A stretch of 64,000 nt of DNA, taken from NCBI RefSeq assembly GCF_900177615.1, contig NZ_FXAP01000004.1:248001-312000 (forward strand), in the 5' to 3' direction. Below are positions 1-18,346 of this stretch, piece by piece. Position numbers and translations under genes: made by a program. The number at the start of each line of letters is the position of its first letter. The stretch's first letter is position 1. The DNA comes from Plantibacter flavus. GTDB lineage: Bacteria; Actinomycetota; Actinomycetes; Actinomycetales; Microbacteriaceae. Under the pieces are notes generated by a model. That model searched no databases and was not told where the DNA came from. It saw nothing but the letters and a program-made list of their open reading frames with translations.

Positions 1-71
1 CCGCGCTCGACGATGCCCGGGAGCTCCACCGTGTGGTCGAGCGAGGGGTTGGCGGTCAGGGTGATGATCAT
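1..71 (-). CDS. fruK: 1-phosphofructokinase, N-terminal fragment (cut by window edge)
   Basis: Only the first 23 complete codons are present, reading MIITLTANPSLDHTVELPGI and onward from the ATG at 71. The TANPSLDxTVEL stretch is the hallmark N-terminus of the PfkB-type 1-phosphofructokinases, which phosphorylate fructose-1-phosphate after PTS import. The ATG overlaps the stop codon of the upstream DeoR-type regulator (ATGA), so the two are co-transcribed and probably translationally coupled. The rest of the gene, and probably a fructose PTS gene, lies to the left of the window. Identity is inferred from a short but characteristic stretch and from the fruR-fruK context. Confidence 0.85.
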   Translation of the reverse strand, partial: MIITLTANPSLDHTVELPGIVER

Positions 72-856
72 GCGACGACCACCTCGACACCCGCAGCCTC
101 GAGGGCGTCCCCGAGCGTCGTCGGAACGACCTCGTCGGTGATGACGGTGTCGATCTCGTCGAGGGCGGCGAAGCGGATGAGCGCTTCCTCACCGAGCTTG
201 GCGGCGTCGGCGAGGACGACGGCCCGGCGCGAACCGCGGACGATCGCCGACTTCACGGCACCCTCGAGCTCGTCGGGCGTGCTCAGGCCGAAGTCGGCGC
301 TGACCCCGTTGGCGCCGACGAAGGCGATGTCGGGACGGAACCGGCCGAGCTCGTCGACGGTGGTGCTGCCGACCGCCGCGCTCGTGATGCCACGGACGCG
401 GCCACCGAGGAGGTGCAGTTCGACGTGGTCGCAGTGGTGGAGCGTCGCGGCGATCGGGACCGAGTTGGTGATGACCGTGAGCGTCTGGCCGGCGGTGGCC
501 GGGCGCCAGGTGACGAGGAGGTCCGCGAGGTGGGCCGTGGTCGTCCCGGCGTCGATGACGATCGAGCCGCTGAACGTGGCCGGGATCAGCCGGAGGGCCG
601 CACGGGCGATCGTCGCTTTCGCGTCGCTCCGCTGGCCCTGGCGATCGGCGAGACTGGCTTCCGCGACGGAGGCACGTGCTGCTGAGACGGCACCGCCGTG
701 GACGCGGCGCAGGACACCCGAGGTTTCGAGCTGGTCGAGGTCGCGGCGGATCGTCTCGGCGGTGACGCCCAGCTCACGGGAGACATCGGCGACGGAGACC
801 CGTCCGCTTGTCTTCACCCGGCTGGTGATGTGCTCGTGCCGCTCCGTCGCGTACAT
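68..856 (-). CDS. fruR: DeoR-family transcriptional regulator of fructose utilisation
   Basis: A 262-residue protein. The N-terminal DeoR helix-turn-helix lies at about residues 19-43 (VADVSRELGVTAETIRRDLD), followed by the family signature RRVHGGAV. The C-terminal two thirds is the DeoR sugar-phosphate sensor domain, with the ISOCOT-like VIDAGTTT and LLGGRVR stretches. DeoR repressors of this type usually respond to a phosphorylated sugar. The ATG at 856 has AAGGA just upstream; an in-frame start 63 nt further out would add a non-homologous tail and is not favoured. It overlaps fruK by 4 nt, so it probably regulates its own fructose operon. A direct-repeat operator candidate lies at 913-935. 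Confidence 0.9.
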   Translation of the reverse strand: MYATERHEHITSRVKTSGRVSVADVSRELGVTAETIRRDLDQLETSGVLRRVHGGAVSAARASVAEASLADRQGQRSDAKATIARAALRLIPATFSGSIVIDAGTTTAHLADLLVTWRPATAGQTLTVITNSVPIAATLHHCDHVELHLLGGRVRGITSAAVGSTTVDELGRFRPDIAFVGANGVSADFGLSTPDELEGAVKSAIVRGSRRAVVLADAAKLGEEALIRFAALDEIDTVITDEVVPTTLGDALEAAGVEVVVA

Positions 857-3329: not shown

Positions 3330-6300
3330 TCACTCCAGACGCGCCCGTCGCGTAGCCACGAAGGCACCTCCGAGGAGGAGCATCATGGCGCCGAGTCCCC
3401 CGAGCCACAGGCCGTCGAAGCCGGTGCTCGGCAGACCGGGGCGTGACCCCGGTGCGGCGGCGGCCACTGCGGTGACCGTGAAGGCGGTCGCCTCGCGGTC
3501 GAGCGGGAGGTCGCCGGTCACGGATCCGGAGAGCTCCACCCGGTGGGCACCCAGCTCGATCGACGAGTCGACCGGGAAGGTGAGGGTGGCGTTGCCGGAG
3601 GCGTCTGCGATGACGGGCGTCAGGGCGAACGGCGTCGAGAACACGGTGGCCGAGACGGTCTCGCCGGGCTCGAAGCCGGTGGCGTAGACCTCCTGGATCA
3701 CACCCGTGTCGCGGACGATCGTCACGTACTTGACGGTCGCCAGGCGGTCGTCGCCGGCGTCGGTGTCACCGTCGGCGTCAGCTGCCGTGTCGGCGTCGGT
3801 CGCTGTGTCGGCGTCAGTCGCGGTGTCCGCGTCGGCGTCGGCGTCGGCGTTGAGGTCGAGATCGGTGCCGTCAGCGGCGGTGTCCGCCGCAGCGTCCACG
3901 TCAGCTGCAACATCGGTGTCGGCAGCAGCGTCAGTGTCGGCAGCAGCATCGACATCGGCCGCAGCGTCCGTGTCAGCAGCGGCATCCGTGTCGGCGGCAG
4001 CATCGACGTCAGCCGCAGCATCCGTGTCGGCAGCAGCATCCACATCAGCCGCAGCGTCCGTGTCGGCCGCAGCATCCACATCCGCAGCAGCATCGGTGTC
4101 GGTGTCGGTGTCGGCAGCCACATCCGCAGCGGCGTCGGTGTCGACATCAGCCGCAGCATCCACATCGGCCGCAGCGTCCGTGTCAGCAGCGGCATCCGTG
4201 TCGGCGGCAGCATCGACGTCAGCCGCAGCATCCGTGTCAGCGTCCGCGTCAGCATCCACATCAGCGGCAGCATCGACGTCAGCCGCAGCGTCCGTGTCGG
4301 CAGCAGCATCCACATCCGCAGCAGCGTCGGTGTCGACATCAGCCGCAGCATCCACATCGGCGGCAGCGTCGGTGTCAGCCGCAGCGTCCACGTCTGCGGC
4401 GGCGTCCACATCAGTCGCGGCGTCGCTGTCCGCAGCAGCATCCACATCGGCCGCAGCGTCGGTGTCAGCCGCAGCGTCCACGTCTGCGGCGGCGTCCACA
4501 TCAGTCGCGGCGTCGCTGTCCGCAGCAGCATCCACATCGGCCGCAGCGTCGGTGTCAGCCGCAGCGTCCACGTCTGCGGCGGCGTCCACATCAGTCGCGG
4601 CGTCGCTGTCCGCAGCAGCATCCACATCGGCAGCAGCGTCCGTATCGGCAGCAGCATCCACATCAGCCGCGGCATCCACGTCCACGTCGGTGTCCACGTC
4701 AGCAGCAGCGTCCACATCGACCGCAGCGGCGTCGGTGTCGACGTCGACCGCTCCGTCCTCGATGGTGACGTCCGACTCGGCCGGCGTCTCGGAGACATCG
4801 CCCTCGGCGGTCACCGTGACCGGTCCGGGCGTGTAGTCGTCCGGGATCGGCAGGTCCACGGTGAAGGAACCGTCGGGGTTCGTCACCACGGTGACCGACG
4901 GTGCGCCCGGGATCGAGACCGTGACGGTCTCCCCTCCGGCGAAGCCTGTGCCGTCGACCGTGACCGTCTCACCCGGCAGCACCGAGGACGGGTCGACCGT
5001 GATGGCCGTATCGTACGCGAGGACCTCGATGATCGTGGTCGCCGGCTCGTCCGATGCGGCACCGAGTGCCGTGACCGTGACGTCGCCGAGCGCATATCCG
5101 TCGGGGACCGGCAGGGTCACCGTGAAGCCGCCGCCGGCGTTCGTCACCTGCGTGACGACCGGGGCGCCCGGGATCGACACCGTGACCGTCTCGTTGGCTG
5201 CGAAACCCGATCCGGTGATGACCGTCGTGTTGCCGGCGATCAGCGCGTCCGGGGAGGCGGTGATCACGGGCGAGAACACGATGGCGGTGACCGTGACGGT
5301 CGCGGTGGCCGGCGTCTGCGACACCGCTCCCTCCGCCGTGACGACCAGCGGGCCGACCGGCGCGTTCGCCGGGACCGTGATCCCGACCGAGAACTCGCCG
5401 GCACCGTTCGTCGTCGCCGGAACAGCCGTGCCACCGGGCACCGTGACCGTGACGGACTCGTTCGGCGCGAAGCCGGTGCCCGTGACAAGCGTCGCTCCGC
5501 CGGCCGTGACCGTGCTCGGGTCGGCGGTGATCGCCGTCTCGTAGGCCTCGACCGTGAGCTCCGCCTCGGCGGGCGTGGCCGAGGTCTCACCGACCGCGGT
5601 CACCGTGACCGGCCCGGCGGGCGTTCCGGGCGGCACCGGCAGGGTCGCGGTGAAGCCGCCGTCGCCGTCCGCCGTCACCACGACGGGGTAGCCGCCGGGG
5701 ATCGAGACGCTGACCGACTCGTTCGGCTGGAAGCCGGTACCGGTGACCGTGGTGGTCTGGCCCGGGTTGACCGTGTCCGGTGTGAGGGTGATCGCCGTGT
5801 CGTAGACCGTGGCCTCGACCGTGACGGTGGTGGTCGCCTCGGTCGCCGAGACGACGCCGAGTGCGGTGACCGTGACCGGACCGGTCGCGAAACCCTGCGG
5901 GACCGCGAACGTCGTGGTGATCTCACCGTCGGCGTTCGAGGTGACCGTCACCGGCGCGAGACCGGGGAAGGTGACCGTCACGCTCTCGGTCGGAGCGAAG
6001 CCACTCCCCGAGATCTCCGTCGAGGTCCCGCCGGGGACCGTCGCCGGGTCGGCGGCGATCGTCGGCGTGTAGACCACGTCGACCGTGAGGTTCGTCGTCG
6101 CAGGGGTGTCGGACGTCGCGCCGAGCGCGGTCACGACGACCACGCCCTCGGCGGAGTCGGCCGGCACGGGCAGCGACACCGAGATGGTGCCGGTCGCCGT
6201 CGCCGTCGTGTCCACCGGGTCGGCGCCGGGGATCGAGACCGTGACGGTCTCGTTCGGTGCGAAACCGGTTCCGGTGACGAGGGTGCTGGCACCCGCGACC

Positions 6301-9300
6301 ACGGTGGTCGGGTCGGCGGTGATGGCCGTGACGTAGGTCGTGGCTTCAACGGTGAGCGTCGCCGTGGCGGGGGTCGCCGAGACGGCCCCGGTGGCGGTGA
6401 CGGTCACAGGTCCGAGCGGGAAGTCCGCCGGGAGGTCGACGCTCACGGAGATCTCACCGTTGCCGTTCGACGTGGTGGGGATCGGCGTCGCGATGCCCGG
6501 GACGGTGACGCTCACGGACTCGTTCGGTGCGAAGCCGTCACCGGTGACGAGGGTGCTCCCACCGGGTGCGACCGTCGTCGGGTCGACCGTGATCGAGGTC
6601 TCATAGGCCTCGACGGTGACCGTCGCCGTCGCGTCCGTCGCGGAGACGGCGCCCGTTGCGGTGACGACCAGCGGTCCGGCCTCCGTGGCCGACGGGATCG
6701 GCAGGGCGGCGGTGAAGCCGCCGTCGCCGTTCGCCGTCACGACGACCGGTGTGCCACCGGGGATGGAGACCGAGACGGACTCGTTCGGCGCGAACCCGGT
6801 ACCGGTGATCGTCGTCGACGTGCCGGGGAGCAGGGTGTCGGGGTCGGCGGTGATCGCGGTCTCGTAGGGCACCACGGTCACGTCGGCGTCGGCGGGCGTG
6901 TTGGAGGTCTCACCGGTCGCGGTGATCGTGATCGGTCCGGCCGGCGTTCCGGCGGGGATCGTGACGGGCTGCGTGAAGTCGCCGTCGCCGTTCGTCGTCG
7001 CCGTGACGGGGTCGCCGCCCGGGATGGTGATGGTGACGGTCTCGTTCGGCGCGAAGCCCGTGCCCGTGACGGTGGTGGTTCCACCCGGGTTGGCCGTCGT
7101 CGGGTCCACCGTGATCGCCGTGTCGTACACGACCGCTTCGACGAGGACCGAGGTCTGCGCCGGCGTGAGCGACAGGGCGCCCGTGGCCGTGAACGTCACC
7201 GTCGCGGGGACGAAGTCCGCCGGGAAGGCGACGACCTGGCTGATCTCGCCGAGCCCGTTCGCCGTGGTCACGACGTCGTCGAAGCCGGGAGCCGAGATGG
7301 TCACCGACTCGTTGGCGACGTAGCCGGTGCCGGACAGGATCGTCGAGTCACCGGGGTTCAGCGTGGACGGCGTCGCGGTGAGCGTCGTGTCGAACGCCTC
7401 GACGGTGATCGTCGCAGTGGCAGGCGTGGCCGAGACCGCGCCGACGGCCGTCACGACGACGGGGCCGGCGGGGGTGCCGGGCAGGATCGGCAGGATGGCG
7501 GTGATGTCGCCGTCCGGGCCGGCCTCCACCACGACGGGCGTGCCGCCGGGGATGGAGACCGAGACGGACTCGCCGGGCAGGAAGCCCGTTCCGGTGACGG
7601 TGGTGCTGCCGCCGGGGAGGAGCGTGTCGGGGTCGGCGGTGATCGCCGTGTCGTAGACCGTCGCCTCGACCGTGACCGTGGTCGTCGCCTCGGTCGCGGA
7701 GACGACGCCGAGGGCGGTGACCGTGACCGGACCGACCGCGAAGTTCTGCGGGACGTCGACGGTGGTCGTGATCTCACCCGCTGCGTTCGACGTGACGGTG
7801 ATCGGGTCGAGGCCCGGGAAGGTGACCGTGACGCTCTCGCTCGGCGCGAAGCCTGCGCCCGAGATCTCGGTGCTCGTGCCGCCGGGGACGGTCGCGGGGT
7901 CCGCGGTGATCGTCGGGGTGTAGACGACGTCGACTGCGAGGTTCGTGGTTGCCGGTGTGTCGGAGACCTCGCCGAGGGCGGTCACGACGACCGTGCCCTC
8001 CGCGTAGTCCGCCGGGACCGGCAGCGAGACGGAGATGGTGCCGGTCGCCGACGCCTGCGTGGTGACCGCGGGCGCACCCGGGATGGAGACCGTGACGGTC
8101 TCGTCGGGCTCGAAGCCGGTACCGGTGACGAGCGTGCTCTCCCCGGCGACGACGGTCGTCGGGTCGACCGTGATGGCCGTGACGTAGGTGGTGGCCTCGA
8201 CGGTGAGCGTCGCCGTGGCCGGGGTGGCCGAGACGTCGCCGGTGGCGGTGACCGTGACGTCCCCGAGCGGGAAGTCCGCAGGAAGCGTGACACTGACCGT
8301 GATCTCACCGTCGCCGTTCGCCGTGGTCGTCACCGGCGTGGCGAGGCCGGGGATGGTGATCGAGACGGACTCGAGCGGGACGAAGCCGGAACCGGTGACG
8401 ACCGTGCTGCCACCGGGAGCGATGGTCGCCGGGTCGAGCGCGATCGCGGTGTCGTAGGCCTCGACGGTGATGTCCGTCTCGGCCGGCGTCGCGGAGACCG
8501 CGCCGGTGGCGGTGACCGTGAGCTGGCCGGCGGCCGTACCCGACGGGATCGGCAGGACGGCCGTGAAGCCGCCGTCGCCGTCAGCCGTCACGACGACGGG
8601 CGTGCCGTCCGGGTAGGAGACGGAGACCGACTCGTTCGCGGCGAAGCCGGTGCCGGTGATGGTGGTCGAGTTGCCGGGGAGGAGCGAGGCCGGGTCGGCC
8701 GTGATGGCCGTGTCGTAGGGCAGCACCTCGAGGTCGGCGGTCGCCGGGGTTGCGGAGGTCTCGCCGGTCGCGGTGACGACGAGCGTGCCGACCGGTGTGC
8801 CGGCAGGGACGGGCAGGTCGACGGTGAAGCCGCCGTCGCCGTCCGCCTCGACGGTCACCGGGGTGCCGCCCGGGTAGCCGACGGTGACCGTCTCGCCGGG
8901 CAGGAAGCCGGTGCCGGTGACGGTCGTGGTGTTCCCAGGGATGAGCGACGTCGGGTCGAGCGTGATGGCGGTGTCGTAGACCGTCGCGGTGACGGTGACG
9001 ACGGTGGTCGCTTCGGTCGCGGACACGGCTCCGAGCGCGGTGACCGTGACGTCGCCGACCGCGAAGTCCTGCGGGACCGCGATGGGGGTGCCGATCGCGC
9101 CGAGTGCGGTGGCGGTGACGGTGATCGGCTCGAGGCCTGGGAACGTCACAACGACGTCCTCGCCTGGCGCGAAGCCGGCGCCGTTGATGATCGTGGTCGT
9201 GCCACCGGCGACCGTGGCCGGGACGGCGACGATCGAGGTCTCGTAGACCACGGCGAGGTTGGTCGTGGCCGGGGTGTCGGACGTCTCGCCGAGCGCGGTC

Positions 9301-11540
9301 ACGACGACCGAGCCTGCGGCGTAGTCCGCCGGGACGTCGAGCTCGACCGAGATCGTGCCGGTTCCGCTGGCCGTCGTGGTGACCGGGTCGACGCCGGGGA
9401 TCGAGACGGCGACGGACTCGCCGGAGGCGAAGCCGGTGCCGGTGATCGTCGTGGTCCCACCGGCGACGACACTGGCCGGGTCGGCGGTGATGGCGGTGAC
9501 GTACTGCGTCGCCTCGACGGTGACCGTCGTGGTCGCGGGGCTGGCCGATGAGGCACCGGTCGCCGTGACCGTCACGGGGCCGAGCGGGAAGTCCGTCGGG
9601 AGTGTGAGGCTGGCGGAGATCGTGCCGGTGCCCGACGCGGTGGTGACCACCGGGTCGGTGAGGCCGGGGACGGTGATCGACACCGACTCATCGGGCAGGA
9701 ACCCGGTGCCGGTGATCGTCGTGCTGCCGCCGGGCGCGATCGTCGCCGGGTCGGCGGTGATGGCGGTCACGAACGGCGCCACGACGAGGTCGGTGGTGGC
9801 CGGGGTGTCGGAGGTCACACCGGTGGCGGTGAACGTCAGGGTCGCCGGGGTGAAGCCGACGGGGATCGCGACGCTCTGGCTGATCACACCGGCGGCGTCC
9901 GACGTCGTGGTGACCGGGTCGAGGCCGGGCGCGGTGATCGTGACCTGCTCGTTCGCCGCGAAGCCGGTGCCGTCGATCACCGTGGACTGGCCGGGGTTGA
10001 CCGTCGCAGGCGTGGCGGTGATGGCCGTGTCGTACACGACGACCGTCCCGCGCACGGACGACGAGGCGAGGTTGACCGTCGCGAGCGAGATCGCCGGGAC
10101 GAGGGAGATCTGCACGGCTCGGACGGTCGCCGATCCATCACCGAGGTCGCCGGTGGCCGGCTGCACGTTGGCGGTGACGTCGGCGACCAGGCGGACGATG
10201 TTGAGGATCGGCCCCACGACGTTCGCCGCCAGGCCGCCCGTGATGCCGTCGACCGTCGACTCCGCTGTCTCGAGGACCGTGAACACTCCGCCGACGACCC
10301 CGAGCACCAGGTTGAGGAGGTTCGAGATGATCTGGTCGAGGCTGATACCGAGGACTCCGAGCACCGTGTTCAGCACGCCTCCGACGATGCCTGAGGTGAC
10401 GAAGGTCGCCGACCCGTCCTCGATGGCGGACAGCGGGGCGTTGAGCGTCAGGGTGACAGCGTTCTGGCCGAGCGCTCGGACCTGGACGACGGCGTTCACG
10501 TTGGTGGCCTCGACGGCAGCCCGGAGACCGGTGACGACCGCCGTCACCTGATCGGTGATGGCCTGCGTGATCCCGTCGGCGATCGCAGCGGCGATCGGAC
10601 CGGACAGCAGCGAGGTGTTGGGCGGCAGCTCGTTGAGATCCGGCAGATCGGGGTCTGCCGCGAGCAGTGTCTCGATGTCGACCGTGACAGCACCCGTGGT
10701 GAGGTCGACCGTGACACCGCTGGCTGAGCCGACCGGACCGGTGGGGAGCAGGGCGTTGAGGTTCGGAGGAGTGACGGCCACGGAAGTCGTCGAGGTCACG
10801 ATGCCCAGGTTGATCGCTCCGGTGAGCGCCTGGTTGAGTGCGGTCTGCAGACCGGTGAGGGAGGTCTGGACACTCCCGACCGTGGTCTGGAGGTTCGTGT
10901 AGACGTTCTGCACGAGCGGGCTCTGGAGCGTGAGCGTCGCACCGGAGATCTGGTAGTCGGGAACGGCCGTGGCGCCACCCGTCTGCGAGATCGTGGAAGC
11001 GAGGGCGCCGAGGCTGAGCGAGAGGTCGCTGAGGACGCCACCGGTGGGGGTGCCGACGCGGCCGAGCAGCCCGGTGAGGTCGAGTTCGGCGTTCGCCGGT
11101 GGTGCGTCCGGTCCGCCGATCGAGACGCCGCCCTGGTCGGTGACCGCGCCCGAGCCGGCGATCGCGTCGCCGTTGGCGGCGGCGGACCCGTACTGGGCGA
11201 CTGCACCGAGCTCGATGACGCCGTTGGCGCCGAACAGTTGGAGCGAGCTGCCGAGGTCGACGCCGAGGGTGTTCAGCACCTCGGCGGACAGCGGGTTCGC
11301 GGCGACCGGGTGCACCCCGCTCGGGTTCTCGGCACGGGCGCCGGCGACTGCGGCGAGGGCGTCGAGGTTGATCCCGGCCGCCTGTCCTCCGAGGAACCGG
11401 CCGAAGCCGTCGGAGACATCGGTCGGGGCCGCTGTGGCCGCCGTCGTCGATCCCATGGCGATGACCGTGCCGACCACGGCCATGGCCGCGACCTTCCACG
11501 CACGGCCTCGGCCGAGGATGCTGCGTTGCTGTCCCCCCAC
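3330..11540 (-). CDS. Giant LPXTG-anchored adhesin with 20 Ig-like repeats (choice-of-anchor G type)
   Basis: A 2,736-residue secreted protein. Start is GTG at 11540, with AAGAAAGG 8 nt upstream. The signal peptide ends near ATAA/APTD. An N-terminal domain of ~500 residues (FGRFLGGQAAGINLDALA and onward) resembles the choice-of-anchor G family. Twenty ~85-residue Ig-like repeats follow, each opening with Y-D/E/V-T-A-I-T-x-D-P and containing TGTGFxPNESVSVSIPG; they occupy about 4770-10050. Next is a ~340-residue stalk of DVDAAA/DTDAAA hexapeptides (about 3740-4770), one divergent repeat, LPSTG, a membrane helix and RRAR. Repeats 2-5, 7-10 and 14-17 recur as the same four-repeat set, so the gene grew by block duplication. 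Probably a surface adhesin or biofilm protein; ligand unknown. Confidence 0.9.
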   Translation of the reverse strand: MGGQQRSILGRGRAWKVAAMAVVGTVIAMGSTTAATAAPTDVSDGFGRFLGGQAAGINLDALAAVAGARAENPSGVHPVAANPLSAEVLNTLGVDLGSSLQLFGANGVIELGAVAQYGSAAANGDAIAGSGAVTDQGGVSIGGPDAPPANAELDLTGLLGRVGTPTGGVLSDLSLSLGALASTISQTGGATAVPDYQISGATLTLQSPLVQNVYTNLQTTVGSVQTSLTGLQTALNQALTGAINLGIVTSTTSVAVTPPNLNALLPTGPVGSASGVTVDLTTGAVTVDIETLLAADPDLPDLNELPPNTSLLSGPIAAAIADGITQAITDQVTAVVTGLRAAVEATNVNAVVQVRALGQNAVTLTLNAPLSAIEDGSATFVTSGIVGGVLNTVLGVLGISLDQIISNLLNLVLGVVGGVFTVLETAESTVDGITGGLAANVVGPILNIVRLVADVTANVQPATGDLGDGSATVRAVQISLVPAISLATVNLASSSVRGTVVVYDTAITATPATVNPGQSTVIDGTGFAANEQVTITAPGLDPVTTTSDAAGVISQSVAIPVGFTPATLTFTATGVTSDTPATTDLVVAPFVTAITADPATIAPGGSTTITGTGFLPDESVSITVPGLTDPVVTTASGTGTISASLTLPTDFPLGPVTVTATGASSASPATTTVTVEATQYVTAITADPASVVAGGTTTITGTGFASGESVAVSIPGVDPVTTTASGTGTISVELDVPADYAAGSVVVTALGETSDTPATTNLAVVYETSIVAVPATVAGGTTTIINGAGFAPGEDVVVTFPGLEPITVTATALGAIGTPIAVPQDFAVGDVTVTALGAVSATEATTVVTVTATVYDTAITLDPTSLIPGNTTTVTGTGFLPGETVTVGYPGGTPVTVEADGDGGFTVDLPVPAGTPVGTLVVTATGETSATPATADLEVLPYDTAITADPASLLPGNSTTITGTGFAANESVSVSYPDGTPVVVTADGDGGFTAVLPIPSGTAAGQLTVTATGAVSATPAETDITVEAYDTAIALDPATIAPGGSTVVTGSGFVPLESVSITIPGLATPVTTTANGDGEITVSVTLPADFPLGDVTVTATGDVSATPATATLTVEATTYVTAITVDPTTVVAGESTLVTGTGFEPDETVTVSIPGAPAVTTQASATGTISVSLPVPADYAEGTVVVTALGEVSDTPATTNLAVDVVYTPTITADPATVPGGTSTEISGAGFAPSESVTVTFPGLDPITVTSNAAGEITTTVDVPQNFAVGPVTVTALGVVSATEATTTVTVEATVYDTAITADPDTLLPGGSTTVTGTGFLPGESVSVSIPGGTPVVVEAGPDGDITAILPILPGTPAGPVVVTAVGAVSATPATATITVEAFDTTLTATPSTLNPGDSTILSGTGYVANESVTISAPGFDDVVTTANGLGEISQVVAFPADFVPATVTFTATGALSLTPAQTSVLVEAVVYDTAITVDPTTANPGGTTTVTGTGFAPNETVTITIPGGDPVTATTNGDGDFTQPVTIPAGTPAGPITITATGETSNTPADADVTVVPYETAITADPDTLLPGTSTTITGTGFAPNESVSVSIPGGTPVVVTANGDGGFTAALPIPSATEAGPLVVTATGAVSATDATATVTVEAYETSITVDPTTVAPGGSTLVTGDGFAPNESVSVTVPGIATPIPTTSNGNGEISVSVDLPADFPLGPVTVTATGAVSATPATATLTVEATTYVTAITADPTTVVAGASTLVTGTGFAPNETVTVSIPGADPVDTTATATGTISVSLPVPADSAEGVVVVTALGATSDTPATTNLTVDVVYTPTIAADPATVPGGTSTEISGSGFAPTESVTVTFPGLAPVTVTSNADGEITTTFAVPQGFATGPVTVTALGVVSATEATTTVTVEATVYDTAITLTPDTVNPGQTTTVTGTGFQPNESVSVSIPGGYPVVVTADGDGGFTATLPVPPGTPAGPVTVTAVGETSATPAEAELTVEAYETAITADPSTVTAGGATLVTGTGFAPNESVTVTVPGGTAVPATTNGAGEFSVGITVPANAPVGPLVVTAEGAVSQTPATATVTVTAIVFSPVITASPDALIAGNTTVITGSGFAANETVTVSIPGAPVVTQVTNAGGGFTVTLPVPDGYALGDVTVTALGAASDEPATTIIEVLAYDTAITVDPSSVLPGETVTVDGTGFAGGETVTVSIPGAPSVTVVTNPDGSFTVDLPIPDDYTPGPVTVTAEGDVSETPAESDVTIEDGAVDVDTDAAAVDVDAAADVDTDVDVDAAADVDAAADTDAAADVDAAADSDAATDVDAAADVDAAADTDAAADVDAAADSDAATDVDAAADVDAAADTDAAADVDAAADSDAATDVDAAADVDAAADTDAAADVDAAADVDTDAAADVDAAADTDAAADVDAAADVDADADADTDAAADVDAAADTDAAADTDAAADVDAAADVDTDAAADVAADTDTDTDAAADVDAAADTDAAADVDAAADTDAAADVDAAADTDAAADTDAAADVDAAADTDAAADTDVAADVDAAADTAADGTDLDLNADADADADTATDADTATDADTAADADGDTDAGDDRLATVKYVTIVRDTGVIQEVYATGFEPGETVSATVFSTPFALTPVIADASGNATLTFPVDSSIELGAHRVELSGSVTGDLPLDREATAFTVTAVAAAAPGSRPGLPSTGFDGLWLGGLGAMMLLLGGAFVATRRARLE
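3740..4770. repeat. Asp/Ala-rich 18-bp repeat tract, with a 90-bp tandem block at 4351-4630
   Basis: On the minus strand the tract encodes hexapeptides of the form DxDAAA. Within it a 90-bp unit (five hexapeptides) is repeated about three times at 4351-4630; the copies starting at 4381, 4471 and 4561 are identical for essentially their whole length. Such exact tandem copies are expected to change number by slippage or recombination without breaking the frame. Confidence 0.9.
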
Positions 11541-11986
11541 GGTGGAACCCTTTCTTCGGTGCACGGGCGAACCCGCGACTGGCGTCGATCCCGGCCAATC
11601 TATGGGCGGGTGTCCCTGTCCCCCAGAGGAGGGACCCCAACCTCCGTAGTGCCGGATGGAAAACCGGTACTGGCCTCCGCAGTGCGAGGCGGCGCCGCGG
11701 GACGCCGGGTTTCGATCGGTCCCGGAGGGCCTCCGACGCGTCATCGGTGGCGGGGCTCCAGTGCACTTGGTTCCACCCGCGTCATGTCATCGATGACGAT
11801 TGAGGGATAACCCTCACTGGCCGGGGGTTTACCCCCGACCGAGATGCGTAGTTTCTACTGAGAACGCTCTCTTTGGGCTGCGGAAGCACTCAGGGATTAC
11901 GGATAATGGGGCATCCGACGGAGTATTCGCAGCATCCCTAGTGATGTGGATCCCGTCGTCCTGACGGAGCTTGAGGGGGCTGCGAT
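11541..11986. promoter_or_regulatory. Divergent control region between the adhesin and the LuxR module, with three palindromes
   Basis: No gene is seen in these ~450 bases. Three inverted repeats lie close together: GTCATCGATGAC (11786-11797, perfect), GAGGG-N4-CCCTC (11802-11815) and CGGGGGT-TT-ACCCCCG (11822-11837). Downstream the sequence becomes AT-richer (GTAGTTTCTACTGAGAAC, then GGATTACGGATAATGGGG), plausible for a rightward promoter. The adhesin leader on the other side is about 250 nt from the palindromes. Binding proteins cannot be named from sequence; the neighbouring LuxR regulator is the obvious candidate. Confidence 0.5.
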
Positions 11987-12058
11987 ATGGAAGAACCGTT
12001 TGCGACGGCAGTGGGGCGAAATCCACATCCGGCTTCGACCGAGCAGGTCGTCCCATGA
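11987..12058 (+). CDS. 23-residue leader peptide coupled to the LuxR regulator
   Basis: ATG at 11987 is preceded by GAGGGGG at good spacing. The short frame reads MEEPFATAVGRNPHPASTEQ and ends VVP, with TGA at 12056-12058 overlapping the regulator's ATG (CCATGA). No special residue run is present to suggest classical attenuation. It may simply bring ribosomes to the regulator, whose own Shine-Dalgarno is weak. Its reality rests on the ribosome site and the overlap; there is no homology evidence. Confidence 0.45.
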   Translation: MEEPFATAVGRNPHPASTEQVVP

Positions 12059-14943
12059 ACCCGGGCGCGCATCGGTTCAGCGGCGGAGCGTGGTCCGCCG
12101 CATCCCCCACCCGTCGCTCCGGCGAGTTCCGGCAATCCGCCACCCGCGCTCCCGCCCAACCGAGCGGTCGAGCGGCGGCGATCGCCCGGATGACGGCACT
12201 CATCGCGAACCGGACCAGCACGCTCCTCGTCGGACCACACGGCTACGGCAAGACCTTCACCGCGGACGCGATCGGACGTCGGATGCACGAGGACGGACGC
12301 CCGGTCATCCACGTGTCGGGTGCGTCACGGGACGCCTCGCACACGCTGAGCGACTGGCGTGCGGCGCCGAGCGGTGCCGTCTTCATCGTCGACGACGGGG
12401 CGAACCTCCACCCGGCGAGCCTCGCCGACATCATCGAACTCTCGCGGTCGCGTGAGCAGGTCGCCCTGGTGACGCTGGAGCAGGAGCTCGCCGGACTGCA
12501 GGGGCGCGGCGACGAGTCCGCCGATCGGCTCCTCGCCGTCTGGCGGACCGGGTCGCTCACACGGATCGACCTCCCGGCGCTCGACGGGTTCGAAGCCTCG
12601 GCGATGGTGGACGAGGCCGCCGAAGATGCGGTCCTCGACGACATGGCCAAGGCCGTCATCGTGCGGCTGAGCAACGGCTCGCCACGGCTCGTGCATGAGC
12701 TCACGAAGGACGCGCTCGAGACGGGCGGGGAGTTCTACCTGCCGCGCAGCATCCTCTCGCTCGGGGTCGCGGGGGTCTCACCCCGGGTGCACGACCTCAC
12801 GGAACCCCAGCTCTCCCGGCTCGAGGACGAGGGTCGGTACGCCCTGGTCATGCTGGCGAAGCTCGGTCCGGTCCCCTACTCGCGCGCGATCCGCCTGCTC
12901 GGCGAGCACCAGTTGCACGCGCTCCTCCGGCTCGGACTCGCGCGGAACGACGGCTCAGGCCAGGACCGCATCGTCGCCGACGAACTGCACGCGTGGTCGG
13001 CACTCGCGGAGTGGCGCCACAGCGGACGACTGCACCGCCACGACCGCGTCCAGCGGACGCTCATCTCGGACCTGCGTGGCGGTGCCCGTCTCACGCCGAA
13101 CGAGTCCTTCATCCTCGGCCGGTACTGGCTGACGGCCCCGCACACCGAGCTGGACGAGGGGTTCGAGTCCCTCACGATGGCGCGCACGTTTCTCGAGGCT
13201 GCGCACGTCGCGAACGTCTCCGGGCTCGCCGAGGACGGTCGTCTGCTCGCCGAACGCGCCTACACCTGGCGTCCTTCCGTGGCAGCGGCGCTGCAGTGGT
13301 CGCGATCGCTCGCCATGCTGGGCGACGGCGACGGGGCTCAGCGGGTCCTGGAGGTCGATCCCACTGCCGACTCCGACGAGGACATGCAGGCGGAGGTCTT
13401 GAGTTGGCGGGCGATCCTCGACCGCTGGTCCGAGCGCACCTGTGCGCAGGAGCTGACGGAGCAGGAGGAGCACAGCCGCGTGCTGTCCCAGCGGATCCTG
13501 ATGGTCGAGACCTGGCGCGACCAGGATCGGCAGGGTCCGTCCGAGAGCGACGCCGTCTTCTGGAAGGTCCTGCGCGACGTCGACGCCGCGCAGTCCTCGC
13601 GACTGTATGCCGCCGCTGCGCTCGTGACCAGGCTCGGCCTCAGGCTGCCACCGTCCGAGCTGCGGGAGCTGCTCCAGCTGGGTGACGCCGTCTACCGGTC
13701 GGTGCCCTACAGCGCAGCGCGGCCGTTGTCGCACGCCCTACGCGACGCGAGCGCCATGTACGTCCTGTCGGCCGGCACCATCCGCCTGCTCACGGGCCTC
13801 TCCTGGGCCGGCTTCGCGCGTTACATCGACGAGTTCGTCGCTCGCGCCGAGCGCGGGACCGGGCGCCTGGCGACGACGGACCAGTGCATCGTCGGGATCC
13901 TCGGAGCCCAGTTAGCGTTCTTCGACGGCCGCCCGGACCGCACCGTCGCCGACCTCCGGGTCGTCGAGCGCCTGCTCGACTCGACCGTCCCGCCCGAGGT
14001 GCACACGCAGACCGCGCTGCTCCTCGTCGGCGCCCTCGCCCAGACGGGCGAGCTCGAGGAGGCGACGGAACGGCGAGCTGCTGAGGACGAACGCCTCATC
14101 GCCGCCTCCACGGTCCTCTCCTACCTGGCGGACATCGCCGACTTCGGTCTGCTGATGGCAGGCGGTCGCGTCATGGAGGCCCGGGATCACCTAGGTCGGC
14201 TCGCGCAGGACATCCGGAAGCCGCTGACCGAGCGGGTCTACTCCGCGAGCCTGGCCTCCGCGGCCGGCACCGACCTGTCCGAGACCCTGTCCTGGGTCGT
14301 TGACGCCCGATCGCTGGAGCTCACGCCACTGCAGGCGTCGCTCATGCTGCTCCTCGAGGCCGGCGCCGCCGGTGACGCGAGCCGCGTCGAAGAGGCCGCC
14401 TGTTCGCTCGAGGAGGTCGGAGCACGGCATCGGGCGATCGGAGCCCATCTGCTCGCAGAACGACTCCACGAGGCCCAGGGTCGACTGCAGCACGCTCGCC
14501 GTTGCGCGGAGCGGGCCGCCGAACTCGTGGGTCCCGTGCCCGGCGCCGCCGCGGATGCGGAGGCCGGCTGGACCTCAGTCGTTTCTCCATCGCCCGTGTT
14601 CGCCACCTACCGACCGGAGACGACCGAGGAGACCGTGCCCGTCGAGCGCATCGTCCCGGTCGAGCCGCCCGCGACGCACGCACCCCTGGCCTACCTCTCC
14701 CGAGGACAGACGGACACCGGCCAGGAGACCGCCGGGGCCGACCTGAGCGCGCTCACCCGGCGGGAGCTGGAGGTCTCCCTGCTCATCGCGCAAGGACTGA
14801 GCAATCAGGAGATCGCGACGCGGCTCTTCCTCAGTGTCCGCACCGTCGAGTCGCACGTGCTCCAGGCGCGGACGAAGCTGGGTGCGGGGAGACGGCGCGA
14901 CCTGGGCCGCCTCGTCGCGCAGTCCTCGCAGCGTCATGCCTGA
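12055..14943 (+). CDS. Large P-loop ATPase / LuxR-family transcriptional regulator
   Basis: A 962-residue protein. An AAA/STAND-like ATPase is at the N-terminus, with Walker A GPHGYGKT (about residues 60-67) and Walker B VFIVDDG (about 109-115). A long helical mid-section follows without an obvious small-molecule domain. The C-terminal LuxR helix-turn-helix is at 900-955 (LTRRELEVSLLIAQGLSNQE, then RTVESHV). The architecture is that of LAL/MalT-like regulators, in which ATP and ligand binding drive oligomerisation on DNA. The start is fixed by overlap with the upstream mini-ORF. It lies divergent from the giant adhesin and directly upstream of the SipW-type genes, so it probably controls one or both. 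The inducing signal is unknown. Confidence 0.85.
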   Translation: MNPGAHRFSGGAWSAASPTRRSGEFRQSATRAPAQPSGRAAAIARMTALIANRTSTLLVGPHGYGKTFTADAIGRRMHEDGRPVIHVSGASRDASHTLSDWRAAPSGAVFIVDDGANLHPASLADIIELSRSREQVALVTLEQELAGLQGRGDESADRLLAVWRTGSLTRIDLPALDGFEASAMVDEAAEDAVLDDMAKAVIVRLSNGSPRLVHELTKDALETGGEFYLPRSILSLGVAGVSPRVHDLTEPQLSRLEDEGRYALVMLAKLGPVPYSRAIRLLGEHQLHALLRLGLARNDGSGQDRIVADELHAWSALAEWRHSGRLHRHDRVQRTLISDLRGGARLTPNESFILGRYWLTAPHTELDEGFESLTMARTFLEAAHVANVSGLAEDGRLLAERAYTWRPSVAAALQWSRSLAMLGDGDGAQRVLEVDPTADSDEDMQAEVLSWRAILDRWSERTCAQELTEQEEHSRVLSQRILMVETWRDQDRQGPSESDAVFWKVLRDVDAAQSSRLYAAAALVTRLGLRLPPSELRELLQLGDAVYRSVPYSAARPLSHALRDASAMYVLSAGTIRLLTGLSWAGFARYIDEFVARAERGTGRLATTDQCIVGILGAQLAFFDGRPDRTVADLRVVERLLDSTVPPEVHTQTALLLVGALAQTGELEEATERRAAEDERLIAASTVLSYLADIADFGLLMAGGRVMEARDHLGRLAQDIRKPLTERVYSASLASAAGTDLSETLSWVVDARSLELTPLQASLMLLLEAGAAGDASRVEEAACSLEEVGARHRAIGAHLLAERLHEAQGRLQHARRCAERAAELVGPVPGAAADAEAGWTSVVSPSPVFATYRPETTEETVPVERIVPVEPPATHAPLAYLSRGQTDTGQETAGADLSALTRRELEVSLLIAQGLSNQEIATRLFLSVRTVESHVLQARTKLGAGRRRDLGRLVAQSSQRHA

Positions 14944-15140: not shown

Positions 15141-15785
15141 ATGACCATCGACACCAGCACCGAGGCTCCAGCGGCCACCGGCACCGACGCGCCCGTCCGC
15201 GGTCAGCGCAGCAAGCGGGCGAAGGCGATCCTCGCCGGCGGTCTGGTGCTCGGCGTCGGTGCGGCGATCACCCTCGCGGCCTGGAACGACTCCGAGTTCG
15301 CGACCGGGATCTTCGCCGGTGGTGGCTTCGGCATCGAGGGCAGCACGGACGGTACCGCGTTCACCGAGCACCCGACCGAGGCTGCGGCCGCCCCGCTCAC
15401 CTTCGCGGTGGAAGCCGACAACCTGGCACCCGAGGAGCCCGTCTACGCCGGCTTCGCCGTGCAGCTGACCGCCGCGTCGACGTACGCCGGAACGGTCGAC
15501 GTCACCGCCACGAGCGGCGACGCCATCGCCTCATCGCTCAGCTACTCCGTCGTGGAGACCACCACCTTCGGCTGTGACGCCGCGAGTTTCGCGGCCGGTG
15601 ACCCGCTCGTGACGGACGCCGCCACGGCGGAGAGCACGGCCGCGGACGTCTTCACGCTGGGTGCCGTCACCACGCCGGTGTTCCTGTGCTTCGAGGTCAC
15701 CCCGGCAGCGAGCCTCCCACAGGCGTCGCCGAGCGGCACGGTGGTCTGGCAGTTCGCGGCCGAGTCCACCACCCCGCTGCCGTAA
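15141..15785 (+). CDS. SipW-dependent-type secreted protein 1
   Basis: A 214-residue protein starting at ATG 15141 behind AGGGGG. Residues ~22-52 form an alternate-type signal peptide: basic RSKRAK, a Gly-rich hydrophobic core (AILAGGLVLGVGAAITLA), then the hallmark AAWNDSEFATG with an acidic D-S-E just after the cleavage region, as in TasA/CotN-type SipW substrates. The mature part is Thr/Ala-rich and beta-like, with two cysteines (contexts FGCDAAS and LCFEV). There is no sortase motif or other membrane segment. It heads a compact run with the SipW-type peptidase two genes downstream, which is the likely processing enzyme. It may form a surface fibre or matrix component; that role is inferred from TasA, not shown. 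Confidence 0.75.
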   Translation: MTIDTSTEAPAATGTDAPVRGQRSKRAKAILAGGLVLGVGAAITLAAWNDSEFATGIFAGGGFGIEGSTDGTAFTEHPTEAAAAPLTFAVEADNLAPEEPVYAGFAVQLTAASTYAGTVDVTATSGDAIASSLSYSVVETTTFGCDAASFAAGDPLVTDAATAESTAADVFTLGAVTTPVFLCFEVTPAASLPQASPSGTVVWQFAAESTTPLP

Positions 15786-15805: not shown

Positions 15806-16444
15806 ATGGGACGACACACCCCGGCGGCGCGGAGGCATCACCGCACCGCTGAGCGACGGAGCACGTCGCGCTACACGAAGACCAGAGCGGCCCTGGCAGC
15901 AGCGCTCGTGCTGGGTGTCGGGACCTCGCTCACCCTCGCGGCCTGGAGCGACGACGAGTTCGGAACGGCGACCTTCGCGGCGAGCACCTTCGCCGTCGAA
16001 TCGCAGACGGCGACGGGAAGTTGGGCGGCGCACGAAGCGGCCAATCCGGTGACGCTGCTGTTCAACGCGACCGCCATGTCGCCTGGACTGTCCCAGTACG
16101 CATACATCGACATCCGCACCACCTCGGCGACGACCATCGGCGGGTCGGCTGCCCTGTCCGCGGTTTCGGCGGCCACCGGCGGGCTACTTCCGGCGCTCGA
16201 GTACCGCGTCGTGGCGACGGCGACGGGCACGACGTGCGGAGCGGGCGCATTCGCCTCGCAGACGTACACGGGGTCACTGGCGGCCGGCGCCGCGGTGCCG
16301 GCCGCGTCCGGCACCCTGGGCACGGCGTCGGCGACCCCGGTGCGCTTCTGCTTCGACGTGCGGGTGAAGCCGGGCACGCTGCCCAGTTTCCAGGGCTCGA
16401 CGGCGTCGGCGACCTGGGTGTTCACCAGCACCTCCAGTTCCTGA
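15806..16444 (+). CDS. SipW-dependent-type secreted protein 2
   Basis: A 212-residue protein, 20 nt after the previous gene, with GGGACGG before the ATG at 15806. The basic N-terminus (RRHHRTAERRSTSRYTKTR), the core AALAAALVLGVGTSLTLA and the hallmark AAWSDDEFGTATF match its upstream neighbour position for position around the cleavage site, marking it as a paralogous SipW-type substrate. The mature region is Ala/Thr/Ser-rich with beta propensity. Two cysteines (contexts TTCGAG and RFCFDV) may form a disulfide, as in its neighbour. Function unknown; probably a co-secreted partner or subunit. Confidence 0.75.
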   Translation: MGRHTPAARRHHRTAERRSTSRYTKTRAALAAALVLGVGTSLTLAAWSDDEFGTATFAASTFAVESQTATGSWAAHEAANPVTLLFNATAMSPGLSQYAYIDIRTTSATTIGGSAALSAVSAATGGLLPALEYRVVATATGTTCGAGAFASQTYTGSLAAGAAVPAASGTLGTASATPVRFCFDVRVKPGTLPSFQGSTASATWVFTSTSSS

Positions 16445-16454
16445 TCGGAGCACC

Positions 16455-17771
16455 GTGACCCGTCCCTCCACGGAAGCGATCGACGCCACCCGGCGGCAGC
16501 GACCCCGCCGCCCGGTGGCGTCGATCGTCGGAGACACCCTGCTGAACCTCGCCGCCGTCGGCGGGGTGGTCTGCATCGTGCTCGTCATCCTCGCGACCTG
16601 CTTCAACATCACCCTCATCATGTTCAAGACCGGTTCCATGAGCCCGACGATCCCCACCGGCTCACTCGCGCTCGTCCGCGAGATCCCGGCATCCGACATC
16701 GCGGTGGGCGACGTGGTGACCGTCGACCGCGCCGGGCAGCTGCCCGTCACCCACCGCGTGACCTCGGTGAGCGGCGGCGTCGACACCGCGGGACCGCAGC
16801 GCACCATCACCATGCAGGGCGATGCGAACCTGTCGGAGGACCCCGAGCCGTACACCGTCTCGACGGTCCGCATCGTGCTCGCCTCGGTGCCGGGGCTCGC
16901 GTACCTCGTCGTGTGGTTGTCCAACCCGTGGGTCCTGGCCGGACTGACGCTCAGCTGCTCGGCCCTCGTCATGTGGGCGTTCTGGCCGCGCTCCGACCGC
17001 AAGCGCCCACCGAGTGATTCGGGCGGGACCGGCGGAAACGGTCGTGCTGCTTCCCGACGCCGCTCCTCCACGGCCGGCGCCGACGCAGCCGGACCACGAC
17101 CGGCCCGCCACGCCGCGCTCCGATACTCACCGGTCGCCCTCCTTCTCGGCGCCGGCCTCGCGATCGGCGGCGCCGCTCCCGCGCACGCCGAACCGATGGT
17201 CGACGTCATCGCCGGTGAGGCGGTCGTCCTCACCTCGATCGGTGACCCGTCGGCCATGCGGTCCCTCACCCCCGGTCGGTCGACGCCCTGGGAGGTGGGC
17301 ATCAGGACCAAGCCGGAAGCCACACCGGGCTCCATCGACGTGACCATGGTCGGCTCCGGCTCGTCCGAACTCGGCCTCGTCATGGTGGTCGACGCCTGCT
17401 CCGTCCGGTGGACCGCGGCCGGATGCGTCGGCACCGTCACCCACCTGTTCGACGAGATGGCGGTGCCCGTCGACGGCGTCGAGCGCGCGGTCCTCTCGAT
17501 GCGCAGCTCGGAGGCGTGGTGGCTGAAGTTCGACGTCCGGATGCCGTCCGGCGCAGCGGTTGCGAACGCCTCGGTCGCCCTCACGGTCACGGCCGAGGGC
17601 ATCGGTGACGACGTCTCGGTCTCGCCCGGCCCGATCACCACGCTCCCCCGCACCGGCGCGAGCATCGAGTTCGCCGTGTGGACCGCTGCCGGCGCGATCC
17701 TCATCGGCCTCGTCGGCGCGTGGTTCGGCGCGCTGCGTCAGCACTCCCGCTCGGCGAGGGCAGCACGATGA
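16455..17771 (+). CDS. sipW: SipW-type signal peptidase I fused to an LPXTG-anchored domain
   Basis: A 438-residue protein starting at GTG 16455. The first ~180 residues are an ER/SipW-type signal peptidase: a membrane helix (LAAVGGVVCIVLVILATCF), catalytic Ser61 in TGSMSPTIPTGS, His100 in PVTHRV (the Ser/His dyad of the SipW class rather than Ser/Lys), and a C-terminal helix near 145-177. After a polar linker comes a signal-like hydrophobic stretch ending PAHAEP (about 224-246), a ~150-residue beta-type exported domain, LPRTG (397-401), a helix and a basic tail. So one polypeptide combines a membrane peptidase with a sortase substrate. The 4-nt overlap with the next gene and the neighbours' AAWxDxE signals make those proteins its probable substrates. 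It could be a fusion of two formerly separate genes. Confidence 0.85.
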   Translation: MTRPSTEAIDATRRQRPRRPVASIVGDTLLNLAAVGGVVCIVLVILATCFNITLIMFKTGSMSPTIPTGSLALVREIPASDIAVGDVVTVDRAGQLPVTHRVTSVSGGVDTAGPQRTITMQGDANLSEDPEPYTVSTVRIVLASVPGLAYLVVWLSNPWVLAGLTLSCSALVMWAFWPRSDRKRPPSDSGGTGGNGRAASRRRSSTAGADAAGPRPARHAALRYSPVALLLGAGLAIGGAAPAHAEPMVDVIAGEAVVLTSIGDPSAMRSLTPGRSTPWEVGIRTKPEATPGSIDVTMVGSGSSELGLVMVVDACSVRWTAAGCVGTVTHLFDEMAVPVDGVERAVLSMRSSEAWWLKFDVRMPSGAAVANASVALTVTAEGIGDDVSVSPGPITTLPRTGASIEFAVWTAAGAILIGLVGAWFGALRQHSRSARAAR

Positions 17772-18346
17772 AACCAGGTCGGTCAAGACTCGTCGCAGCG
17801 GTCGTCCTCGCGACGACGGTCGCATTCGTGGCGGCCCCTGCTCCGCAACCGGTGGACGCCGCTTGGCAGGACGCCGAGTCGGGTGCCGTGGCGTTCGCCG
17901 CACTGAGCATCGCCAAGCCCGTCTACCTCGCCGGAGCAAGCGGTTGCTCCATATCCACGACGTCGGTGCTCGGCGTCGGTCTGGTCATCAACTCCTACAC
18001 CCTGACGTTCACGATGCCGGAGGGGTACGGCTCGGCGGACATCCAAGTCGGCGGCGGGAACACGTCGACCACGATCGCCCTCGCCTCCGCCGCGGTCACA
18101 CCGGCCGCGACCTCGCCGACCCCCAACCCGACGAGGCAGTACTCCGTCACGTTCAACCGAGGTCTTCTCGACGGACTCCTCACCGGCCTGCTCGGCGGAA
18201 CCGGCTATCTCGGCGTTCGTGTGGCGCCGTCCAGCCTGATCGTCCCGCCGCTCACTCGCGACACGATCTGGACGTCGCCGTGGGCCGTCGTGCAGGTGGG
18301 TACAGCGCTCCTGGGCACGAACCCGACGTGCACCGTCATCGGGTGA
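17768..18346 (+). CDS. SipW-dependent-type secreted protein 3
   Basis: A 192-residue protein whose ATG overlaps the peptidase stop codon (ATGA). The signal region MKPGRSRLVAAVVLATTVAF, continuing VAAP, ends in AAWQDAESGAV, the same AAW-x-D-x-E hallmark as the two upstream secreted proteins. The mature domain has Thr/Ser-rich beta-like sequence and two cysteines (GCSIST and PTCTVIG near the C-terminus). No sortase signal. Probably exported and cleaved by the adjacent peptidase. The stop lies 1 nt from the stop of the convergent LacI gene, with no terminator hairpin between them. Confidence 0.75.
   Translation: MKPGRSRLVAAVVLATTVAFVAAPAPQPVDAAWQDAESGAVAFAALSIAKPVYLAGASGCSISTTSVLGVGLVINSYTLTFTMPEGYGSADIQVGGGNTSTTIALASAAVTPAATSPTPNPTRQYSVTFNRGLLDGLLTGLLGGTGYLGVRVAPSSLIVPPLTRDTIWTSPWAVVQVGTALLGTNPTCTVIG

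Follow-up and report, generated by a model that had tools for sequence, protein, structure and literature searches.

The window analysed here, a stretch of 64,000 nucleotides from Plantibacter flavus, contains on its forward strand a gene of 438 codons (16455–17771, +) which begins with GTG, has no internal stop, and joins in a single chain a signal peptidase of the SipW/archaeal type, a second signal peptide ending in AHA, a beta-sandwich domain, an LPRTG motif, a membrane helix and a basic tail. The gene is placed among others that encode exported proteins (all features described here lie on the + strand unless stated): upstream are T1 (15141–15785) and T2 (15806–16444), exported proteins of the SipW-dependent type, with probable mature starts at WNDSE and WSDDE, and downstream is S3 (17768–18346), a small exported protein that reads AAWQDAE after its leader, and whose start shares 4 bases with the end of the fused gene.

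The peptidase half is recognized by the profile of the SipW/archaeal type of signal peptidase I (TIGR02228: 55.1 bits, cut-off 51.85, residues 38–158), with PF10502 falling slightly below its own cut-off (20.4 against 22.9 bits). The fused protein is not classed as Bacillus SipW itself, because its score with the corresponding equivalog, NF046067, is 32.1 bits and the cut-off 190, and it is likewise below the cut-off of the housekeeping signal peptidase profile TIGR02227 (23.7 against 47 bits). According to hydropathy, a first transmembrane segment occupies residues 32–50 (16548–16604), and a hydrophobic region (windows 135–153 and 159–177; 16857–16985) closes this half. In an alignment of 16 fused proteins obtained with a simple gene caller, four of them from Plantibacter, and from which three further fused loci are left out (L037, L048 and L051), Ser61 (16635–16637), His100 (16752–16754) and Asp123, the latter within a GDAN motif (16821–16823), are invariant in 16 of 16; we take these three, from what is known of the family, to be its active-site residues, so that a catalytic role for them is probable. 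In the window's genome, the fused protein is the only one that belongs to TIGR02228. Elsewhere in the genus, a second place in one genome (L073, genome G175) encodes a distant second peptidase of the SipW type with no recognized anchor domain, and genome G050 also gives a weak second match.

The sequence-only reading of this DNA had proposed one 438-residue frame uniting a SipW-type peptidase, a second export signal, a beta-type domain and LPRTG, a description that the TIGR02228 match, the alignment and the structural model all bear out, and it had named two findings that would undo it: an assembly or sequencing error that had removed a stop, and homologues that were always encoded as two genes. 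Neither was found. The frame is unbroken from end to end in the seven Plantibacter genomes (7/7, the window's own included), at 76–100% identity, on which ground the join as an artefact is rejected, and of 109 peptidases compared, 70 are fused with an anchor domain, while in 28 the anchor domain is the next gene downstream and in 11 none is recognized. The same reading had suggested searching for the two halves separately in Microbacteriaceae, with consistent fusion as support for a real architecture and separate adjacent genes as the mark of a local fusion; the fusion recurs (70/109), alongside 28 split cases. Within the genus, dN/dS is between 0.06 and 0.44 in the peptidase, linker, signal peptide, anchor domain and tail over three comparisons, the linker dS being saturated in the most distant of them.

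These relatives come from a search of 199 genomes of the family (40 stretches) and a scan of named genomes (the best 80 of 246), that is, 120 stretches, in which frames were sorted by a separate profile for each half, both derived from the fused proteins, and peptidases within 97% ungapped identity of one already kept were dropped, which reduced 122 to 109. The proportion 70:28:11 favors the fused form, because the 80 named relatives were those ranked best by their match to a fused protein, and this named part alone comprises 60 fused, 19 split and one with no recognized anchor domain. The last category denotes the lack of an anchor-profile match within 2.5 kb; in two loci (L071 and L072) there is all the same a gene with LAxTG next door. 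Besides the window's own genome, the fusion is present in 18 of the 199 family genomes, from 13 genera, over the stretches examined. The closest named loci belong to Plantibacter sp. (Microbacteriaceae), an environmental genus, 73–95% identical over the best segment, and fused forms carry the names Plantibacter, Leucobacter, Mycetocola, Agromyces, Leifsonia, Cryobacterium and Microbacterium, as well as Arthrobacter, Paeniglutamicibacter, Nesterenkonia, Brevibacterium and Micromonospora; the named split forms are from Microbacterium, Arthrobacter, Humibacter, Salinibacterium, Paenarthrobacter and Nakamurella. Across the class, a protein search of 148 genomes gave a match at 1e-10 in 15, and since a near full-length single frame was found in only two of the 148 (the window's and G106), the fusion is uncommon outside its strongholds.

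The fused and split states are intermingled in the phylogeny. In the IQ-TREE reconstruction from the peptidase half, where branches are long and many of the inner forks weak, the contrast between fused and all other states requires 11 changes, at least seven of them forced by well-supported branches, and that between fused and split alone a minimum of eight (parsimony on the best peptidase tree). In 19 of the 28 split loci, a possible start of the anchor gene overlaps the stop of the peptidase gene by 4 bases. In one Arthrobacter (sp. AZCC_0090, L119), a single extra base at ~5600, within such an overlap, puts both halves in frame, the base being absent and the frames separate in the close relatives L116 and L137; the two halves were joined here very recently, or else the join is a sequencing error of the draft assembly in a run of G. 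Rather than being peculiar to this locus, the fusion concerns two genes that have repeatedly switched between fused and split forms. This recurrence, with its eight changes, and the single base of L119 are what would be expected if small indels had joined overlapping genes and the result had been tolerated as signal peptidase cuts the product again, the fusion having no function of its own, although the fused form has been kept in all seven Plantibacter genomes and in every row of the tree named Leucobacter. We regard the truth of this neutral origin as evenly poised. It addresses only why the genes are fused, and is compatible with the explanation favored below, that of a precursor that includes the base of a fibre.

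The anchor domain (residues 246–396; 17190–17642) is predicted by AF2, with a mean pLDDT of 95.8, to be a beta sandwich of ten strands, and its Cys315 and Cys324 are invariant in 16 of 16 fused proteins. After it comes the layout of a sorting signal: LPRTG at residues 397–401 (17643–17657), a hydrophobic segment taken from hydropathy to cross the membrane at residues 404–422 (17664–17720), and the basic tail. The protein has this layout as judged from its sequence, without being a member of the anchor families, since it is below the cut-offs of TIGR01167 (14.1 against 15.9) and PF00746 (12.6 against 20). A chance LPXTG is rejected by conservation, as all 16 aligned proteins have L397 and G401, though the strict motif is missing from 15 of 70 fused relatives: L[PA]xTG is found in the last 75 residues of 55 of the 70, a looser form only in 13, and neither in 2, while among the split relatives the strict form is near the end in 26 of 28 and no such motif in 2. 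In two fused proteins (L084 and L090), the region after the peptidase is long (421 and 398 residues, respectively) and ends with no sorting signal; their last residues resemble S3, and the next gene may have been fused on as well.

As regards the enzyme that would use this signal, the window's genome has three sortase matches, one of them over the class E cut-off. Class E sortases over cut-off are found in 18 of 18 other carriers of the fusion and in 11 of 14 genomes with no match to the fused protein (the 14 being taken from 20 listed of 88 such genomes, with six of 1.5 Mb or less left out), and the class was discarded as a correlate of the fusion, as it does not discriminate. A sortase gene as part of the operon was also rejected, as BLAST (E 1e-5), run over 108 loci that measure 3 to 18 kb, found no open reading frame similar to the genome's three sortases, a search that could miss remote classes.

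The origin of the anchor domain is suggested by its comparison with the profile of the T-like proteins, with which it aligns over 104 columns (hhalign probability 62, P 7.6e-5), whereas the 32 controls (30 column-shuffled and 2 reversed) do not exceed a probability of 0.2. On the strength of these profiles, the domain is probably a distant relative of the fibre subunits to which a sorting signal has been added. In the fold comparisons, wall-anchored adhesins and pilins of the LPXTG kind rank highest (FnBPA Z 9.7, SdrD 9.1, SdrG 9.1, and also the basal pilin EbpB, 8.7), and TasA and TapA are absent among the 50 matches listed, an absence that excludes nothing. Many Ig-like domains are included too, some from unrelated proteins, which we read as the likeness, in the model, of a common beta sandwich, and a sequence search of solved structures gave no meaningful match for the domain. 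Thus, it could be supposed that the C-terminal half is released and anchored, but as a free-standing adhesin, a chaperone or an assembly factor, whose gene merely travels with the others. The MSCRAMM adhesins at the head of the fold matches, and the distance of a profile relation with probability 62, would agree with this; against it are the absence of that relation from the controls, the overlap or fusion of the anchor gene with that of the peptidase, and a constant place in an operon of subunits, as T-like genes are near 107 of the 109 peptidase loci (exactly two of them in 86). We consider such an independent role rather unlikely, and prefer the fibre-base reading, although the 11 of 109 peptidases without a recognized anchor domain count against the latter.

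The sequence-only reading had also linked the fused gene to exported subunits next door, and here T1 and T2 both have leaders over the cut-off (19) of TIGR04088, at 25.2 and 19.6 bits, a profile which describes the SipW-dependent leader only. Neither has an LPXTG motif at its end. The T-like set from the relatives was selected by requiring, close to the leader, an aromatic residue and then x-D, so that the conservation of D3 in it is by construction. For T2, the model has a pLDDT of 92.3, and a Foldseek search of the PDB places the TasA fibre 8aur first (E 1.1e-3, TMq 0.53), with no match at E 0.001 or better. With VIA-align, 8aur is again first (Z 8.0, 144 aligned residues, rmsd 3.7, positions 1..166 of the model on 29..234 of TasA), followed by the archaeal bundling pili 7ueg (Z 7.6, rmsd 8.0), an unrelated PapD-like domain (7.5) and FimH lectin domains (7.3), all of which are tied with 8aur under the rule that rows within Z 1 are equal; the T2 lists also hold the donor-strand pilins FimG and the Csu subunits. 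These scores of a predicted model are middling, but the ranking was obtained without prior choice. A comparison of the T profile with PDB sequences gave neither TasA nor any other meaningful match.

It might be thought, then, that T1 and T2 are soluble exported proteins, whether camelysin-like proteases or others, that happen to bear SipW-type leaders, without forming fibres. The restriction of TIGR04088 to the leader, the lack of a sequence match to solved TasA and the middling fold scores leave room for this, but the fibre form of TasA heads the PDB chains for T2 in two aligners, the donor-strand pilins 7ueg, FimG and Csu are in the same lists, and the first 17 residues of mature T2 form no strand in the model, which for donor-strand exchange is only suggestive. 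We therefore hold soluble proteins to be improbable, and retain the reading of T1 and T2 as subunits of a TasA-like fibre.

The third neighbor recurs as well. In 79 of 98 fused or split loci, a gene for a small exported protein begins close to the stop, at an offset of −4 in 63, and W or F comes after the leader in 74 of 80 of the proteins in this place, the window's included, according to a loose pattern; a stricter leader motif is present in 51 of 89 genes. A kinship of S3 with the T proteins was set aside: the comparison of the two sets (hhalign probability 69.6) is limited to 22 N-terminal columns, and is partly circular, as both sets were cut at the aromatic residue.

Between the two halves there is a basic linker (residues 181–218; 16995–17108), probably cytoplasmic if the inferred topology is correct, and then the internal signal peptide (residues 219–245; 17109–17189). 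A hydrophobic segment is present in 71 of 71 fused linkers, the window's included (the maximum in 200 shuffles was 36), and after it an AxA box in 69 of 71 (mean of 200 shuffles 40.2, maximum 50). In the closest homologues, the stretch before AHA (218–240) passes a 19-residue hydropathy threshold, below which the window's own stretch remains. In the split relatives, a segment of this kind opens the separate anchor gene, with AxA in 25 of 28. Cleavage after PAHA, to give two products from one gene, had been put forward by the sequence-only reading, and both parts of this have gained support: A243 and A245 of the box do not vary among the 16 fused proteins of the alignment, and the counts of AxA in the linkers make two products likely. 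Its headline, which presents the signal peptidase as a sortase substrate in its own right, probably misdescribes the protein, as only the released C-terminal half would be anchored.

With regard to translation, residues 185–246 contain no in-frame ATG, GTG, TTG or CTG, on which ground the separate translation of the window's C-terminal half was rejected; most probably, that half is synthesized solely within a precursor. Among the fused homologues, 38 of 70 likewise lack ATG, GTG and TTG ahead of the hydrophobic segment, and the other 32 have a possible in-frame start there, so in some of them the anchor half may also be translated separately. Because the linkers maintain the hydrophobic segment and the AxA, and that of the window has no start codon, the fused protein is likely a precursor of two proteins, which would be of about 25 and 16 kDa, cleaved after its synthesis, and not a peptidase anchored to the wall. 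That the fusion remains uncut, as a wall-linked peptidase joined to a surface domain and held at the site of fibre assembly, would fit the single frame and a linker without internal start, and would keep enzyme and base together, but it is very improbable in view of an AxA frequency well over the shuffled maximum, the invariance of A243 and A245, and the 28 relatives that encode the halves separately.

As for the enzyme that would cut the precursor, W or F directly after the last AxA is found in none of the sites amenable to scoring, 68 of them fused and 23 split, a count that uses the last AxA of the segment and is ambiguous where linkers are rich in alanine. At the expected SipW site, by contrast, T1 and T2 read AA-W. 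The window's genome encodes, at another place, one signal peptidase over the TIGR02227 cut-off. We infer that an enzyme of this housekeeping type cuts the precursor, self-cutting being possible.

The explanation that we favor, with a confidence a little over the halfway mark, is that the locus is the operon of a TasA-like fibre, in which the peptidase and the sortase-anchored base are made as one precursor and later cut into two proteins. The sequence of events would have been as follows: (i) the precursor would enter the membrane, where the peptidase half would remove the SipW-type leaders of T1, T2 and probably S3, thereby freeing their mature N-termini; (ii) the second signal peptide, of the ordinary type, would export the anchor domain, to be released by a cut after AHA, for which the housekeeping signal peptidase is the most likely enzyme; (iii) and finally, sortase would join the anchor domain to the cell wall at LPRTG, and there it would act as the wall-attached base or starter of the fibre, a job similar to that of TapA, but with a covalent anchor. 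A base or cap role, as such, is plausible.

Among known systems, streptococcal sortase-assembled pili bring together in one gene cluster a signal-peptidase-like protein, SipA/LepA, and sortase substrates. To our knowledge, those islands have no fusion. The Plantibacter-type loci differ from them in having no sortase-like open reading frame in the 108 loci and in that T1 and T2 of the window end without LPXTG. The likeness is greater to tapA-sipW-tasA of Bacillus subtilis, where a dedicated SipW peptidase is also found beside its exported subunit, and an accessory protein starts and attaches the fibre, as would be the case in the Plantibacter locus. The accounts of that system describe TasA subunits joined by an N-terminal donor strand (PMC9674648), a TapA that donates its N-terminal strand and sits only at the start of the filament, and an overlap between the tapA and sipW genes (PMC10151520). 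The accessory domain of the Plantibacter type differs in its signal peptide, which is of the ordinary kind, in the LPXTG-type anchor that it usually bears, and in a gene that is often fused with that of the peptidase or overlaps it; TapA is reported to have a SipW-type leader (PMC9674648), which the anchor domain lacks. The comparison with TapA is, then, one of role and not of demonstrated homology.

In Clostridium perfringens, sipW-bsaABCRSD similarly combines a SipW-type peptidase, a secreted protein that forms polymers and accessory secreted proteins, but there, in the available part of the report, the neighboring sortase gene is dispensable, BsaA has no LPXTG-like motif, and a fusion is not mentioned (PMC7395162). 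The CapP-TasA-CalY system of Bacillus cereus likewise places sipW and a tasA homologue in one operon, has calY, a second homologue, close by, and includes a chaperone-like protein associated with the wall; it differs in being described as independent of sortase, and CapP is not described, in the accessible text, as part of a peptidase (PMC13082335).

Searches of open-access papers brought up none in which the title or the opening of the abstract describes a signal peptidase fused to a sortase substrate. The components are members of known families or close to them; it is their combination, a peptidase of the SipW type that shares a single chain with a sortase-anchored relative of its likely substrates, that these searches did not find described. 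A broader proposal, which we advance tentatively and would place short of even, is that many actinobacteria make a donor-strand-joined fibre of the TasA type, tied covalently to the wall by a sortase-anchored starter that is the C-terminal half of the peptidase by which the fibre is matured; the cutting of the precursor would then give enzyme and starter in a fixed ratio, and could free the N-terminal strand of the starter at the very site of assembly. If so, the TasA/SipW biofilm fibre, described in Bacillus and Clostridium, would extend to a group of environmental and host-associated actinobacteria, and the attachment of such fibres to the cell could readily be tested there. The repeated switching between fused and overlapping genes is, moreover, a natural experiment on whether an enzyme and the anchor of its substrate gain from joint synthesis, and the annotation of such genes as plain signal peptidases conceals a surface protein.

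Other genes of the window accompany the operon. Upstream there is a LuxR-type protein with an ATPase-like N-terminal region (11971–14943; PF00196, 51.1 bits), which could possibly regulate it, and distant relatives are found beside five split loci (L063, L064, L065, L067 and L068), on the opposite strand there. On the minus strand, the window encodes a choice-of-anchor G surface protein of 2804 aa (3330–11744, −; NF033766, 212 bits), with many Ig-like repeats, a long tract of the DVDAAAD type and an LPSTG end, and in five split loci (L064, L065, L067, L070 and L071) a member of ~600 aa of this same family comes after the anchor-type gene within the operon. Finally, one Glaciihabitans contig carries two copies of the fused gene a few kilobases apart (L042 and L092), each preceded by T-like genes, apparently through a tandem duplication of the operon.
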